Shown here: piece after piece, positions 3,513 through 52,589 of the stretch
How the letters are laid out: each line of letters opens with the position of its first letter
Position numbering within the stretch: the stretch's first letter is position 1
Assembly: GCA_030536655.1 (NCBI GenBank)
Contig: JAUNPN010000004.1
Span: forward strand, 1 to 52,734
Source of the DNA: a bacterium
GTDB lineage: Bacteria; Bacillota; Clostridia; UBA1381
Direction of reading: 5' to 3'
Length of the DNA stretch: 52,734 nucleotides
The notes under the pieces: model-generated
What the model saw: only the letters and a program-made list of their open reading frames with translations
Databases searched by the model: none
Told to the model about the DNA's origin: nothing
Position numbers and translations under genes: made by a program

Positions 3513-3702
3513 CAGAGTCTATCCGTAATTAAAGAAGTGCATACTGCGAAGTCGGATTGTTTCCTGCTATGACTTGTTTTGCAAATCATCCGGTCAGATT
3601 ATTCCAAAAATCCGACGCATACCGGCGTATGCCGGAAATTTTTGGGATAATATGACGAAAAATCAGCAAGCAAAATGTGCTTAATTTACGGATATGCTCT
3701 TG
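3513..3702. repeat. Palindromic intergenic element, AGAGCCTATC family (long form)
   Basis: About 190 bp between the 3' end of leuA and the lysS promoter. The ends form an inverted repeat (CAGAGTCTATCCGTAATTAA at the left; the right end, read in reverse, gives CAAGAGCATATCCGTAAATT). The centre is an imperfect hairpin built around GCATACCGGCGTATGC with AAAAATCC and TTTTTGG arms. It ends one base before the leuA stop codon (leuA is on the minus strand). Related copies lie at 35561-35662, 42618-42748 and 46879-46973. No coding capacity. This is what fills the 311 bp gap. Confidence 0.7.
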
Positions 3703-5486: not shown

Positions 5487-5515
5487 TTGTAATTGACTTT
5501 AGTTTATGATATAAT
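5487..5515 (+). promoter_or_regulatory. Probable promoter of the MATE gene
   Basis: TTGTAA (5487-5492), 17 bp, TATAAT (5510-5515). If used, the mRNA would carry a leader of about 225 bases that contains the 99 bp tandem hairpin repeat. The -10 box overlaps the first repeat unit (TTATGATATAAT); the equivalent points of the later units read TTATGATAAAAT and TTATGATAGAAT. Confidence 0.45.
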
Positions 5516-5709
5516 AATTGCAGTTAAGGAAGAAATCCATTCGGATTTCAAGGTTGCAATTATTGTATCGGAGTGAAGCAAAGTCGATTGGCGACTTTGC
5601 ACTTATGATAAAATAATTGCAGTTAAGGAAGAAATCCATTTGGATTTCAAGACTGCAATTATTGTATCGGAGTGAAGCAAAGCCGATTGGCGGCTTTGCA
5701 CTTATGATA
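5504..5709 (+). repeat. Tandem 99 bp hairpin repeat in the MATE leader
   Basis: Two full units (from 5504 and 5603) and the start of a third (5702). Each unit has two hairpins: ATAATTGCA ... TGCAATTAT enclosing GAAATCC/GGATTTC, and a second with 9 bp arms. The second hairpin reads GCAAAGTCG-attgg-CGACTTTGC in unit one (5578-5600) and GCAAAGCCG-attgg-CGGCTTTGC in unit two (5677-5699), a compensatory change. A reading frame across it on the minus strand is an artefact of the repeat. Confidence 0.85.
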
Positions 5710-5748: not shown

Positions 5749-7113
5749 ATGAAAAATACAGACAAAACATATGCGCTTGCCAATGAGCCGATTGGCAGAC
5801 TTATATTTAGGCTTTCGATACCGACCGTGGCGGCGCAGCTTGTAAATCTGCTGTATAACATAGTAGACAGAATATATGTGGGAAGAATACCGGAAACAGG
5901 ATCGCTTTCGCTTGCTGGTCTGGGTGTGACCTTTCCGATAATATTGATGATTTCCGCAGTGGCGATGCTTTTTGGTACAGGCGGAGCGCCGAGGGCGGCG
6001 ATTGCGATGGGAAAGGGAGATAACGAAAAGGCGGAAAGAATACTCAATAACGCGGCGGTAATGCTTGTAATCGCCTCAATAGCGGTATCCGGAATATTTC
6101 TTCTGAGCAAGGATTGGATACTTATGCGCTTCGGCGCGAGTGAAAGCACCCTTCCTTACGCGTCAAGCTACATAACGATATATCTGTTCGGAACGATATT
6201 TATCCAGCTTACTCTCGGACTGAACAGCTTTATTACAAATCAGGGCTATACGGGTACAAGTATGGCAACTGTGTGTATCGGAGCGGTGATAAATATTATT
6301 CTTGATCCGATTTTTATTTTTGTGTTCGGGATGGGAGTACGCGGTGCGGCGCTTGCAACGGTAATAGCGCAGGGTGTTTCATGTGTTTGGGTGCTCTGTT
6401 TCCTGACCGGAAAGAAAACGACTCTGCGCCTGAGGATTTCTAAAATGAAGCTTGACCGGGAGATTATTCTGTCAATTGTATCACTGGGAATTTCGCCGTT
6501 TGTAATGCAGTCTACCGAGTGCCTTATACAGCTGACCTTTAACAACGGTATGCAGATTTACGGCAACGATATGTATGTTGCGCTGATGTCAATTCTGTTC
6601 TCGCTTACCCAGCTTATATGGATGCCTATGCAGGGCTTTCAGATGGGCGCGCAGCCGATTGTAAGCTACAACTACGGCGCGGGGAATTATGACAGGGTAA
6701 AAAAAGCATTCAGGATGCTGTTTATGATTTGTGTGATATTTTCCGTTTCGCTTATTGCTCTGATAGAGATAATTCCGGGAGTTTTTATTGGAATGTTCAC
6801 GCCCGATGCTGAGATCATAAGCATGGGAAAAACTCCTGTGCGTATTTTCCTGCTGGGAATGTCGGTTATGGGGGCGCAGGGAGCGTGCCAGCAGACTTTC
6901 CTTGCATTGGGCGAGGCAAAGGTTTCGATGTTTCTTGCTCTGCTGAGAAAGGTAATTCTGCTTTGGCCGCTTGCGCTTATTCTTCCGCACGCTGCGGGAC
7001 TGGGTATATGGGGATTGTTCCTTGCAGAGCCTATAAGCGATTTTATCGCGGCGGCGACGACAACGACAATGTTTGTCAGACGCAGTAAAAAGCTTTTCGG
7101 AGGTATATTTTAA
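5749..7113 (+). CDS. MATE family efflux transporter
   Basis: Membrane exporter, likely of drugs or toxic metabolites, driven by a Na+ or H+ gradient. 454 residues with about 12 hydrophobic segments. The N-terminus has the family pattern PIGRLIFRLSIPTVAAQLVNLLYNIVDRIYVG, and the second half repeats it around MPMQGFQMGAQPIVSYNYGAG. It is preceded by AAAGGA 11 bases upstream of the ATG. The stop codon overlaps the start of tadA (TAATG), so the two are co-transcribed. The substrate cannot be read from sequence. The structured tandem repeat in its leader is unusual and may control its expression. Confidence 0.93.
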   Translation: MKNTDKTYALANEPIGRLIFRLSIPTVAAQLVNLLYNIVDRIYVGRIPETGSLSLAGLGVTFPIILMISAVAMLFGTGGAPRAAIAMGKGDNEKAERILNNAAVMLVIASIAVSGIFLLSKDWILMRFGASESTLPYASSYITIYLFGTIFIQLTLGLNSFITNQGYTGTSMATVCIGAVINIILDPIFIFVFGMGVRGAALATVIAQGVSCVWVLCFLTGKKTTLRLRISKMKLDREIILSIVSLGISPFVMQSTECLIQLTFNNGMQIYGNDMYVALMSILFSLTQLIWMPMQGFQMGAQPIVSYNYGAGNYDRVKKAFRMLFMICVIFSVSLIALIEIIPGVFIGMFTPDAEIISMGKTPVRIFLLGMSVMGAQGACQQTFLALGEAKVSMFLALLRKVILLWPLALILPHAAGLGIWGLFLAEPISDFIAAATTTTMFVRRSKKLFGGIF

Positions 7114-7590: not shown

Positions 7591-7727
7591 TTTTGGAAAA
7601 GGATAAGCGGCGCATCTCGCTGTTATTCGGGGCTTGAAGTACAGCGTACGGCTGCGCCTCTCATAACGGCAATCTGCTTGCTTCTCTTTTCCCAAATGCA
7701 TTGATGAAAGGAGTTCAGATTATAAAA
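7591..7727 (+). repeat. Palindromic leader element (copy 1) with ribosome binding site tail
   Basis: Long imperfect hairpin from TTTTGGAAAAGGATAAGC (7591) to GCTTCTCTTTTCCCAAA (to 7696), followed by a conserved tail containing GATGAAAGGAGTTCAG and ending at the start codon at 7728. The GGAG in the tail is the ribosome binding site of the next gene. Copies of the same element precede the genes at 34524 and 52589. In this copy the apical stem reads GTAC-AGC-GTAC, against GTAT-AAAC-ATAC in the copies at 34.2 kb. Confidence 0.8.
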
Positions 7728-9293
7728 ATGAAGAAAAGATTATTAAGTATATTTGTTATTGCGGCTTTGTTATTTTCCTTTACGTCTGTTACAGCAGATA
7801 CGGGACTTCAGGGAAGCGGAACGCAGGCAAGTCCTTTTATTGCAAATGATGAAACAACGCTTCGTATGCTTGCTGATTTTCCTGACGCATACTGGAAACT
7901 GTCAAACGATATTGAACTTACCTCCGCGTGGGAGCCTATCAGCGAGTTTTCCGGAACTCTGGATGGAAACGGATATAAGGTAAGCGGAATATCGATTTCG
8001 GACGTTAAAGGCTCTTTCCTGAACGAGGCGGCATTTTTTAAAGTAAATAAGGGAACGATAAAGGATCTTATGCTTAACGGTGCGGTAGATTATTCATCAA
8101 GCCATTTGGGCGGTGCAATATTTGTATATGAAAACTACGGAACAGTGAGCGGCTGTTCGGTGAGCGGCACGGCAGAGCTGTTTTTATCCAATAAATATTC
8201 ACAGAATGGTTCACAGTTCGGCGGCTTCGTATCGCTGAATTACAGCGGCGGAGTGATTGAAAATTGCTACAGCCGCATAACGATAAAGGGATTGTACGGA
8301 GGCGGTTCCTTGAATAATCTTGCGGGCAGCATGGGTTTTATCGCTGCCAATAAGGAAGGGGGAGTTATCCGCAGCTGTTACACCGCATCCTCTAAGGCAT
8401 CCGGACAAATGTCGCAGACGATAAAAGCTGCCTTCTGCGACAGCAACAGCGGCAGCATTGAAGCCTGTTTTTACGATAAGGATCTGTGCGGATACATCGA
8501 TGAATATGATACTCACGGGCTTCCGAAAAGCACGGCAGCAATGAAAATGCCGCAAACCTACACCGGCTGGGATTTCAATAGCGTATGGGCAATTGACGAA
8601 AGTATAAATGACGGCTATCCGTATTTACAAGCAGAAAAATCTGCAACGGTGCATACAACAGGGGTTACTCTGGACAAAACCGCTGTCACAATTGCTGAGG
8701 GAGATACTGTCGCGTTGTATCCGATATTTACTCCGTCAAACACATCGAATAAGAATGTTGCATGGACTACAAGCAGCAGATATGTTGCCACAGTGGACGA
8801 AAACGGAGTTGTTGCGGGCGTTTCCGAGGGAACAGCGGTAATTACCGCAACAAGCGAGGACGGCGGCTATACAGCGGCTTGTACGGTGACTGTAACAGCA
8901 AATAGTCCGGTATTTACTCAAACGCCGGCTTCTACACAAGAGCCTGCAAATTATCCGTATAAAATAAACGAACTTATTATAAAATCGGAGAGCGGAGAGA
9001 TTTTAGATAAAGCTCCTGCGAATTCGGGATTTATCATAAATACAAAATTTACGAAGATAAAAGAACGGGATGCCGAGGATTATGTTTTTATAGCGGTATA
9101 TGATACAGATGGAGCGCTGTTAAATGTCGATTATATTCAGTCGAACCTGATTGAAAATCATACATACAGCGTGGGGTTCTATGTCCCAAAGCAGGAAAAA
9201 GCTATAGGAAGTGTAAAGGCTTTTGTTTGGAGCGGCTTTAATTCAACGGAACCGTTAGCGGGAGCTGAATTACTTTCTGTCAGCGAATTTTGA
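7728..9293 (+). CDS. Secreted protein with GLUG-like repeats and a Big2 (bacterial Ig-like) domain
   Basis: 521 residues. A signal peptide covers about 1-24 (KKRLLSIFVIAALLFSFTS). Residues 30-290 form short Gly/Asn/Ser-rich turns such as DGNGYKVSGISI and GTVSGCSVSGTAEL, like GLUG or beta-helix repeats of surface adhesins. Residues about 305-390 are a Big2 domain (VTLDKTAVTIAEGDTVALYP ... GTAVITATSEDGG). The last 100 residues end with VKAFVWSGFNSTEPLAGAEL, a motif shared with the end of the giant protein encoded at 9564-13025. It is probably a cell-surface or extracellular binding protein; no enzyme domain is seen. Its ribosome binding site comes from the palindromic leader element. The ATG at 7728 is chosen because upstream starts would overlap that site. 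Confidence 0.8.
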   Translation: MKKRLLSIFVIAALLFSFTSVTADTGLQGSGTQASPFIANDETTLRMLADFPDAYWKLSNDIELTSAWEPISEFSGTLDGNGYKVSGISISDVKGSFLNEAAFFKVNKGTIKDLMLNGAVDYSSSHLGGAIFVYENYGTVSGCSVSGTAELFLSNKYSQNGSQFGGFVSLNYSGGVIENCYSRITIKGLYGGGSLNNLAGSMGFIAANKEGGVIRSCYTASSKASGQMSQTIKAAFCDSNSGSIEACFYDKDLCGYIDEYDTHGLPKSTAAMKMPQTYTGWDFNSVWAIDESINDGYPYLQAEKSATVHTTGVTLDKTAVTIAEGDTVALYPIFTPSNTSNKNVAWTTSSRYVATVDENGVVAGVSEGTAVITATSEDGGYTAACTVTVTANSPVFTQTPASTQEPANYPYKINELIIKSESGEILDKAPANSGFIINTKFTKIKERDAEDYVFIAVYDTDGALLNVDYIQSNLIENHTYSVGFYVPKQEKAIGSVKAFVWSGFNSTEPLAGAELLSVSEF

Positions 9294-34143: not shown

Positions 34144-34149
34144 GATGGG

Positions 34150-34255
34150 TTTGGAAAAAGATAAGCGGCGCATCTTGCCGCCCTCAGCGGCTTGAAGTAT
34201 AAACATACGTCGGCACCGCTTCTGACGGCAATCTGCTTGCTTCTCTTTTCCCAAA
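34150..34255 (+). repeat. Palindromic leader element (copy 2)
   Basis: Imperfect hairpin from TTTGGAAAAAGATAAGC to GCTTCTCTTTTCCCAAA. Nested stems: TTGCCG/CGGCAA, GCGG/CCGC and apical GTAT-AAAC-ATAC. It begins 6 bases past the stop of the membrane protein gene and is followed directly by another copy. Confidence 0.8.
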
Positions 34256-34263
34256 TGGGAAAG

Positions 34264-34399
34264 GAGTAAAGATAAGCGGCGCATCTTGCCGCCCTCAGCG
34301 GCTTGAAGTATAAACATACGTCGGCACCGCTTCTGACGGCAATCTGCTTGCTTTTCTTTCACCAAACGGCATTGGTGAAAGAAGTTCAAATTATAAGTG
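34264..34399 (+). repeat. Palindromic leader element (copy 3) with tail
   Basis: Hairpin 34264-34366, almost identical inside to copy 2, followed by the tail containing GGTGAAAGAAGTTCAAATTA. The ribosome binding site is degenerate here (AAGAAG instead of AAGGAG), as expected if this tail no longer drives a gene. Confidence 0.8.
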
Positions 34400-34523
34400 T
34401 GAAAGAAATGCTTGCTGCATCCCGCGCCTTTCGCAGGGCTTACAGTTTCGCGGACCGAAAAATGCGGACAATTCAGAGCATTTCTCTCAAACGGCATTGG
34501 TGAAAGGAGTTCAGATTATAACA
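34400..34523 (+). repeat. Related hairpin with intact ribosome binding site tail
   Basis: A different hairpin (GAAAGAAATGCT at 34401 pairing with AGCATTTCTCTC to 34488) is followed by the same tail, GGTGAAAGGAGTTCAG, ending one base before the sua5 start codon region. The tail supplies the sua5 ribosome binding site. With copies 2 and 3 it fills the whole 380 bp gap. Confidence 0.7.
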
Positions 34524-35561
34524 ATGATTACAAAGCTTATAAGGATAAATCCTGAAAATATAAATCCGGAGGATTTGAAAGAGGCTGCGGAAATAATTAA
34601 GTCGGGCGGTCTTGCGGCAATGCCGACAGAAACGGTTTACGGCCTCGGAGGAAACGCGCTTGACGCTGAGGCTGCCGGGAAGATTTATGCGGCAAAGGGG
34701 CGCCCGTCGGATAATCCCCTGATTATCCATGTTTGTTCCTATGAGCAGATTTTTGAGTACACAAGAGATGTTCCCGAATATGCAAAAAAGCTTATTAAGG
34801 CGTTTATGCCCGGACCGTTCACGATAATTTTGAAAAAAGCGGATATAATTCCCGATACGGTTACAGCAGGGCTTGACAGTGTGGCAGTAAGATTTCCGAG
34901 CCACCCTGTCGCGCAGGAGCTGATCAGGCTTTCGGGGGTGCCGATTGCCGCGCCGAGCGCGAATCTTTCCGGAAAACCCAGTCCGACAACGGCAGAGCAC
35001 GTTATTGACGATATGATGGATAAAATTGATTGTATCATTGACGGCGGCAGCTGCGAGGTCGGCGTCGAGTCAACAATAGTTGACGCAACCGGGGAAAGTC
35101 CGGAAATACTCAGACCCGGAGGAGTAACGCTTGAAATGCTCCGGGAAGTATGCTCTGACACGGAGGTTGACAGGAATGTTCTGAGCTTGACCACGCCGAA
35201 CGAAAAGCCGAAATGCCCGGGAACAAAGTATAAGCATTATGCGCCGGACGCCGAGGTGACTGTGGTTGAGGGCAGCAGGGACAGCGTTCGCACAAAGATT
35301 AAGGAGCTTATTGCCGCAAACAGGGGAAAGATTATCGGCGTGCTGACCATGTATGAAAGCGCGTATGACGATGCGGTAATTATAAGCACGAGCAGCACAA
35401 ACAAGGGCTATGCAAGAGATTTGTTCGGTGCGCTGAGAGAATTTGACAAGCTTGGCTGTGAACTTGTGTTTGCGGAGTTCTGTGAGAATGACGGAGTGGG
35501 TCTGGCGGTTAAAAACCGGCTGTATAAGAGCGCCGGAGGAAGAGTTTTGCATACGGATTAA
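34524..35561 (+). CDS. sua5: L-threonylcarbamoyladenylate synthase (Sua5 type)
   Basis: Makes threonylcarbamoyl-AMP for t6A37 modification of ANN-decoding tRNAs. 345 residues: the YrdC domain (about 15-205) with GLAAMPTETVYGLGGNAL, AKGRPSDNPLIIHV and PSANLSGKPSPT, then a linker with PGTKYKHYAP and the C-terminal Sua5 domain (about 230-345). This is the two-domain form. The ATG at 34524 is chosen because the GGAG of the leader element is 12-15 bases upstream and earlier starts would include it. A palindromic repeat starts within its stop codon. Confidence 0.95.
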   Translation: MITKLIRINPENINPEDLKEAAEIIKSGGLAAMPTETVYGLGGNALDAEAAGKIYAAKGRPSDNPLIIHVCSYEQIFEYTRDVPEYAKKLIKAFMPGPFTIILKKADIIPDTVTAGLDSVAVRFPSHPVAQELIRLSGVPIAAPSANLSGKPSPTTAEHVIDDMMDKIDCIIDGGSCEVGVESTIVDATGESPEILRPGGVTLEMLREVCSDTEVDRNVLSLTTPNEKPKCPGTKYKHYAPDAEVTVVEGSRDSVRTKIKELIAANRGKIIGVLTMYESAYDDAVIISTSSTNKGYARDLFGALREFDKLGCELVFAEFCENDGVGLAVKNRLYKSAGGRVLHTD

Positions 35562-46878: not shown

Positions 46879-46973
46879 TATAGACTATACGTAATTAAAG
46901 AAGGGCATATTGCGAAGCCAGATTTTAGGGGCAATGCGGCGGAAATTAATTTACGGATAGGCTTTTAATATTA
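46879..46973. repeat. Palindromic element, AGAGCCTATC family (short form, divergent)
   Basis: TATAGACTATACGTAATTAA at the left pairs with TTAATTTACGGATAGGCTTT at the right; interior GGGCATATTGCGAAGCC matches the element at 3513-3702. Confidence 0.65.
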
Positions 46974-51560: not shown

Positions 51561-52589
51561 TTATCTAACCATCTCGTCCTGATGACCTGTCGCCTTGTGT
51601 GAGTTGATTACAGCTCTTATTTCATCAATGGAGCTTGCCGACATATCACCGTTTACAGTATTCTTTACTGCGGACAGAGCGTTTCCGACCTCAAGAGCTC
51701 TTGTGATGTCCTTGTCTTTGATAAGACCGTAGAGAACGCCTGCAAGATATGCGTCGCCGGAGCCGATTCTGTCAATAACCTCAATTTCCTTATACGGCGC
51801 TTCCTCATAGAACTTGCCGTCATAATAAATCTTTGAATTAAAGTTGTGTCTTGTCGGGCTTACAACCTCGCGTCTTGTTGTCGCAACAAGAAGACAGCCG
51901 TAATCATCAGCATAACCCTTCATAATTTCTTCGAGAGTTCCTGTTCTCTGGAGCATACGTCTTGATGTTTCCTCGGAAACGAAGAGAAGATCTATGTACG
52001 GGAAAATTGACTCTATAACGCCTCTTGCTTCCTCCTCGCTCCATAATGCGGCGCGGTAGTTTACATCAAAGGAGATAAGCGCGCCCTGTTCATGGAATCT
52101 CTTTATCATTTCAAGTGCAACCTCTCTTAAATGCGGGTCAAGCGCAAGAGTGATTGATGAAATATGGAAAATCTTTGTCTTTCCGTAAATGGACGGGTCA
52201 ATTTCGGATATATCAAGAGAACACATCGAGGAGTCTGCTCTGTCATAAATAACCGATGACTTACGCGGATAAACACCGCTTTCGTAGTAGTAAATACCGA
52301 GACGTTTTGAGTTTGAATAGTCATAGATAAGGTAATCATCGCTTACGTTTCCGTAACGAACCTTGTTGCGTATAAAGTGACCCATTTTGTTTTTGGGGAT
52401 TTTTGTAACAATTGCGCTTCTTAATCCGAGCATAGCCGCACCTGATACAACATTAAGTTCACTTCCGCCCGCATTTTTCTCAAAGGTTTCGCTTTGTGAA
52501 ATCTTCTCCTTGTTCGGAGGTGAAAGTCTTAACATGACCTCGCCCATACCGATGAGATCAAAATCCGTGTTTTCCTTAAACTTGAACAT
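51561..52589 (-). CDS. kdgK: PfkB family sugar kinase, probably 2-keto-3-deoxygluconate kinase
   Basis: 342 residues. N-terminal IGMGEVMLRLSPPNKEKI and GGSELNVVSGAAMLGLRSAI are typical of KdgK-like proteins. VDVNYR-like substrate loop ISFDVNYRAALWSEEEA (about 172-188) and the anion hole/catalytic Asp in DRIGSGDAYLAGVLYGL (about 271-287, PfkB signature 2). It would phosphorylate KDG, the end product of pectin breakdown, in keeping with the GH105 and importer genes at 36-42 kb. A related sugar such as fructose remains possible. AAGGAGG ribosome binding site 7 bases upstream. A palindromic leader element lies in front of it, running to the window edge. Confidence 0.85.
   Translation of the reverse strand: MFKFKENTDFDLIGMGEVMLRLSPPNKEKISQSETFEKNAGGSELNVVSGAAMLGLRSAIVTKIPKNKMGHFIRNKVRYGNVSDDYLIYDYSNSKRLGIYYYESGVYPRKSSVIYDRADSSMCSLDISEIDPSIYGKTKIFHISSITLALDPHLREVALEMIKRFHEQGALISFDVNYRAALWSEEEARGVIESIFPYIDLLFVSEETSRRMLQRTGTLEEIMKGYADDYGCLLVATTRREVVSPTRHNFNSKIYYDGKFYEEAPYKEIEVIDRIGSGDAYLAGVLYGLIKDKDITRALEVGNALSAVKNTVNGDMSASSIDEIRAVINSHKATGHQDEMVR

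Follow-up and report, generated by a model that had tools for sequence, protein, structure and literature searches.

An apparently mobile hairpin repeat with its own Shine-Dalgarno sequence directly before start codons in uncultured Clostridia

Why should a long palindromic repeat, complete with a Shine-Dalgarno sequence (SD), stand two nucleotides (nt) before the start codon of a gene? The question is raised by the first 52,734 nt of contig JAUNPN010000004.1 (assembly GCA_030536655.1; Clostridia, UBA1381), the stretch analyzed here and called the window. At positions 7591 to 7725, a long imperfect hairpin is followed by a 28-nt tail, then by AA, and then by the ATG at 7728, in line with an earlier note on the window. 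That note offered two explanations, a mobile leader cassette or a general regulatory RNA motif. It is the former that our analysis favors, on the strength of some 134 copies, tandem arrays, unrelated served genes, relic SDs, and orthologs that lack the element. We are fairly confident that the repeat is a nonautonomous mobile element resembling a miniature inverted-repeat transposable element (MITE), specialized for translation-initiation sites and inserted between the SD and the start codon, so that its own tail would supply the SD instead.

Copies, junctions, and relic Shine-Dalgarno sequences

The genome from which the window derives (G000; 3.49 Mb in 266 contigs, 98% complete) yields 134 hits (E ≤ 1e-3) when searched with a covariance model for which 27 copies were aligned, and a core 16-mer of the element occurs at 117 sites, versus 2 with a reversed control. 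Within the window, a 23-nt core pattern with at most three mismatches is found four times, versus zero expected from shuffles. Many contigs end within a copy (e.g., L003, L037, L045, L046, L051, L165, and L169 to L172), and because contigs break inside the element, the true number is probably higher than 134. Copies take three forms: the full element of ~135 nt, a 67-nt form missing its apical half, and arrays in which a 111-nt unit is repeated head to tail. In arrays of two to four hairpins with this period (L007 [C92], L031 [C7], L055 [C98], and L120 [C243]), a GGGAAAGGAGTAAAGATAAGC-like sequence replaces the tail, and the full tail appears only on the last unit, before the gene. The tail is identical whatever the left flank and so belongs to the element.

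When only the last unit of each array is counted, the next gene is codirectional at 76 of 88 array ends and opposed at 12 (binomial P = 1.6e-12). An ATG follows within 12 nt of the element's end in 44 cases, and in 39 of them the first such ATG is at exactly +2, as against 5 with some other distance. The placement is thus not random in orientation or position, as it would be for the ordinary MITE or repetitive extragenic palindromic (REP) element against which the earlier note had set its reading. Among 127 copies, the right junction reads NN-ATG in 39 and NN-GTG in 4, and an ATG lies at 1 or 3 nt in 3; another element follows in 31, NN-TTG in 19, and some other sequence in 31. Nontandem junctions therefore divide into 46 at starts and 50 elsewhere, whereas intergenic AA-NN-WTG sites available in the window comprise 8 starts and 56 nonstarts (P = 2.8e-6, by an approximate control drawn from one window). 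This excess indicates that target choice or survival strongly favors start codons. In a second genus (G006), all 19 readable copies among 20 fetched adjoin a start codon, 17 of them at +2 with an open reading frame (ORF) and the other two also directly before an ATG.

An ordinary MITE or small interspersed repeat could land anywhere and owe its position before start codons purely to selection: insertions inside genes would be lost, and the SD in the tail makes the start position tolerable. We regard this as rather unlikely, given that the spacing is nearly fixed at +2, whereas a selected SD-to-start spacing should scatter by a few nucleotides. Neutral antisense positions between genes are rare, every readable copy in the second genus is at a start, and the junction sequences, AA and NNWTG, suggest that a specific target is chosen. 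Selection probably contributes to the placement.

Insertion between a native SD and its start codon is what the flanks and the orthologs indicate. With the element removed in silico, 20 of 43 arrays show a canonically spaced SD of 4 nt or more, compared with 4 of 43 in a stretch further upstream and 7.3 in shuffles; the same operation in the second genus gives 15 of the 18 copies scored, against 5.3 in shuffles. For speD, seven orthologs in genus g15 have an SD, a spacer, and the same ATG with no element (e.g., CGGAGGTAATCGG-ATG), whereas in the source genome of the window the order is CGGAGAATAGA, element, AA, and ATG. Likewise, nearly all of 30 glyA ortholog loci are without the element, and most share the start codon and a GAAAGGA-type SD. 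Relic SDs on the one hand and ordinary SD-start arrangements in these orthologs on the other imply that the insertions lie between SD and start codon, the new SD being in the 28-nt tail.

The earlier claim that the element supplies the ribosome-binding site is accordingly borne out, so far as sequence can tell, at ~45 start-codon copies in the source genome and at 19 of 19 in the second genus. It fails for the gene starting at 52589: here, the tail ends 31 nt from the ATG, and the gene has an SD of its own (AAGGAGG, 52603 to 52597 on the minus strand). At the start codon at 34524, the tail is indeed identical to the focal one, but it closes a three-unit array whose adjoining unit belongs to another subfamily with a different hairpin (Table 1).

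Table 1. Features of the repeat and of the genes it adjoins in the window
Feature	Position	Strand	Remark
Left flank GGGAGACAAA	7581..7590	+	Putative relic of native SD; without the element reads GGGAGACAAAAA-ATG
Focal hairpin, subfamily I, GTTTGG...CCAAAC type, ~107 nt	7591..7697	+	Covariance hits of models R1 and R2
Conserved tail GCATTGATGAAAGGAGTTCAGATTATAA	7698..7725	+	Right end TTATAA; contains SD AAAGGAG (7707-7713)
Served gene, secreted protein with Ig-like (Big_2) domain	7728..9293	+	Start 2 nt past the element
Tandem unit 1, 111 nt, lacking the full tail	34149..34259	+	
Tandem unit 2, subfamily I, full tail to TTATAA	34260..34396	+	
Tandem unit 3, subfamily II (GTGTGAAAGAAATGC...GAGCATTTCTCTCAAAC), tail as in subfamily I	34397..34521	+	TTATAA, CA, ATG 34524
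Served gene, Sua5/YrdC threonylcarbamoyl-AMP synthase	34524..35561	+	
Subfamily I copy truncated by contig end	52621..52734	-	Tail end 31 nt before ATG 52589

Two other repeats occur in the window. Positions 5504 to 5701 hold two head-to-tail 99-nt repeats that are 94% identical, contain internal palindromes, and lie upstream of the gene at 5749; they show no relation to the element studied here. A 43-nt direct repeat (AGTCTATCCGTAATTAAAGAAG...; 3516 to 3558 and 46882 to 46924, 86% identical) is possibly a second dispersed repeat family.

Hairpin structure, kin, and served genes

The focal element as a whole is predicted to fold with -40.1 kcal/mol. In an alignment of 25 hairpins from many genera (A3, the basis of model R2), 91.7% of cells pair, and compensatory changes occur in 21 of 30 pairs, with a covariation score of 0.451, versus 0.167 when shuffled and at most 0.142 when slid. 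The compensatory changes reported earlier among the window's copies are real, and a comparison across genera brings them out much more strongly. The internal-loop sequence GCAT...GGCAATCTGC is nearly invariant.

With this model, kin are detected across much of the family (54 of 70 genomes, 13 of 17 genera) and, outside it, in 11 genomes, with 391 genomes of the class scanned; the named records are uncultured Clostridia. A further subfamily (ATAACGTGAAAAAT...CACGTTAT), whose tail has a second small hairpin and GGAATGGAGGATTAA-N-ATG, shows the same placement in several genera, with native SDs to its left, and in 44 of 78 sampled copies an SD, a start codon, and an ORF come next. As such, the position and the supply of an SD have been conserved while stem and tail sequences changed. 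Searches of phage, plasmid, and viral collections returned no match to the element.

The genes served have no common function, in agreement with the earlier note. By Pfam, they include NusB, FolD, serine hydroxymethyltransferase (SHMT), SpeD/AdoMet decarboxylase, an isopropylmalate-type dehydrogenase, Sua5, UDG, MATE, sporulation proteins, and a holin; others are the Ig-like secreted protein, DprA, a V-type ATPase subunit, germination proteins, and a response regulator. Even prophage-like genes are among them, and no regulon is apparent.

This diversity bears on whether the element instead serves some regulon as a leader RNA that acts in cis, in the manner of a riboswitch or by binding a protein. 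Its transcribed position just 5' of start codons, its covarying stems, and its nearly invariant internal loop are all features of such a leader. We consider this quite improbable in view of the unrelated and partly phage-like genes served, the tandem arrays, the orthologs, which mostly lack the element, and the roughly half of array ends in the source genome that are not at starts. At gathering cutoffs, Rfam matched nothing in the window, and at the loci of six relatives it gave only two below-cutoff hits, both away from elements. The pairing itself also argues against a sense-strand RNA: 39 nonredundant hairpins contain 16 G.U pairs versus 49 A.C mismatches, the opposite of what such an RNA should show, although kinship inflates these raw counts and the column-wise difference (14 versus 8) is not significant. 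Because a folded sense-strand RNA should tolerate G.U over A.C, we lean toward a hairpin acting at the DNA level, as a hairpin or cruciform recognized by a recombinase. The selection on structure proposed earlier is thus upheld by the covariation, whereas the near absence of G.U pairs does not speak for a sense-strand RNA version of it.

A proposed insertion reaction and the search for its enzyme

If the element is mobile, as we favor, the ~135-nt form or its 67-nt apical-deletion form would insert in one orientation at AA|NN-ATG, between SD and start codon. The right-hand 28 nt would bring a replacement SD, AAAGGAG, 14 nt before the start, so that the interrupted gene should stay translated, and the hairpin would become part of the 5' untranslated region (UTR). 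The hairpin is probably the shape recognized by a recombinase acting in trans.

The junctions hint at the reaction. Positions -2 and -1 of the left flank are A in 53 of 56 and 51 of 56 copies (>90%) in the source genome, and AA precedes 19 of the 20 copies fetched from the second genus. A scan for target-site duplications, with left/right shuffles, found none above the shuffles beyond this AA. Standing at both junctions, the AA suggests a dinucleotide crossover or a 2-bp duplication, although it is nearly invariant. Because AA stands at both junctions and the right flank NNWTG resembles the left end GTTTG, a single activity may recognize both the target and the left end or a circle junction. 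GTTTG, found after most junctions of the NN-TTG class, equals the element's own left end, and in at least some cases (as at folD and in this window) it is where a subfamily II element begins, one that itself ends NN-ATG. A resident copy's left end would thus itself be a target, which would explain the head-to-tail arrays. Tentatively, and at somewhat less than an even chance, we propose that recombination is directed at the translation-initiation site itself (AA|NN-start) and that this target is mimicked by the element's left end, which reads AA-GT-TTG or, in a different subfamily, AA-C-GTG; the element would then home to gene starts, stack head to tail, and pay with an SD, the substrate being a folded single DNA strand. 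The clearest single junction from which to deduce the reaction is that at L018 (C176:26673), where a TATG is already present at the end of the left flank and the sequence across the right junction is TATATG-TTTGAAATT, such that the start codon seems to have been rebuilt across the insertion.

Hairpin DNA, oriented insertion, the absence of a long target duplication, and an AA at both junctions that resembles a dinucleotide core also fit a REP-type element moved by a Y1 (HUH) transposase of the REP-associated tyrosine transposase (RAYT) kind, or an IS110/bridge-RNA-type element. We give this very little credence: the most copy-rich genome, that of the window, contains neither Y1_Tnp (PF01797; 0 hits) nor the IS110 DEDD domain (PF01548; 0 hits), and other copy-rich genomes, such as G011, G023, and G066, have no Y1 hit. 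A search for an autonomous copy by way of unpaired left ends and solo tails met, among the matches listed, only decayed, truncated, mini, or contig-end copies; the whole insertion sequence content of the hosts was not surveyed.

Several points weigh against a mobile element specialized for initiation sites. Searches found no autonomous partner or transposase for it, and no strain pair displays a true empty site in its DNA. About half of the array ends in the source genome are away from start codons (19 NN-TTG, mostly GTTTG, and 31 other). The genes themselves were called with a home-made codon-usage caller. At 14 nt, the spacing between the element's SD and the ATG exceeds the usual distance, and the predicted accessibility of the SD is no greater than with a shuffled hairpin (mean unpaired probability, 0.41 versus 0.39), which leaves a role of the hairpin in holding the SD open unsupported. 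It is because of this spacing and unchanged accessibility that we infer, rather than observe, use of the SD.

In most cases, selfish DNA either keeps away from gene starts or harms them. If our favored reading is true, here is a family of selfish repeats that lands at gene starts by rule and, by bringing its own ribosome-binding site, can settle in an operon's most sensitive part at low cost; in each genome, dozens of genes would have had their 5' UTRs rewired, and target choice at translation-initiation sites would become experimentally testable.

Relation to known repeats

With a length of 135 nt, no coding capacity, 134 copies, and terminal inverted repeats (outer stem GTTTGG/CCAAAC) that form a hairpin, the element has the basic build of a MITE. 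Imperfect hairpins of conserved structure and poorly conserved stem sequence are also seen in integron attC sites, from which the element differs in apparently forming no cassette arrays and in the order of its end motifs (GTTTGG...CCAAAC versus RYYYAAC...GTTRRRY, compared by eye only). REP elements and bacterial interspersed mosaic elements share with it oriented hairpin units and tandem arrays. Unlike those associated with RAYT, it resides in a genome without a Y1 transposase, has a larger hairpin, and sits at start codons.

The BOX, RUP, and SPRITE repeats of pneumococci are overrepresented between convergent genes (PMC3049150). Like these, the element is short, palindromic, dispersed, of high copy number, noncoding, modular with tandem variants, and without an autonomous partner inside; it differs in lying sense-oriented 2 nt before starts, with an SD, and no duplication of the target longer than AA could be demonstrated for it. 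Insertion in frame within coding sequences is typical of Rickettsia palindromic elements (reviewed in PMC10969869). They too are palindromic mobile repeats tolerated by the genes that they enter, whereas the present element lies ahead of the start codon, where its SD would take the place of the native one. In its workings the element resembles MITEs and small interspersed repeats, but no link to an autonomous element was found. The literature covered, which took in few subscription papers, describes no repeat that systematically parts an SD from its start codon and replaces that SD.
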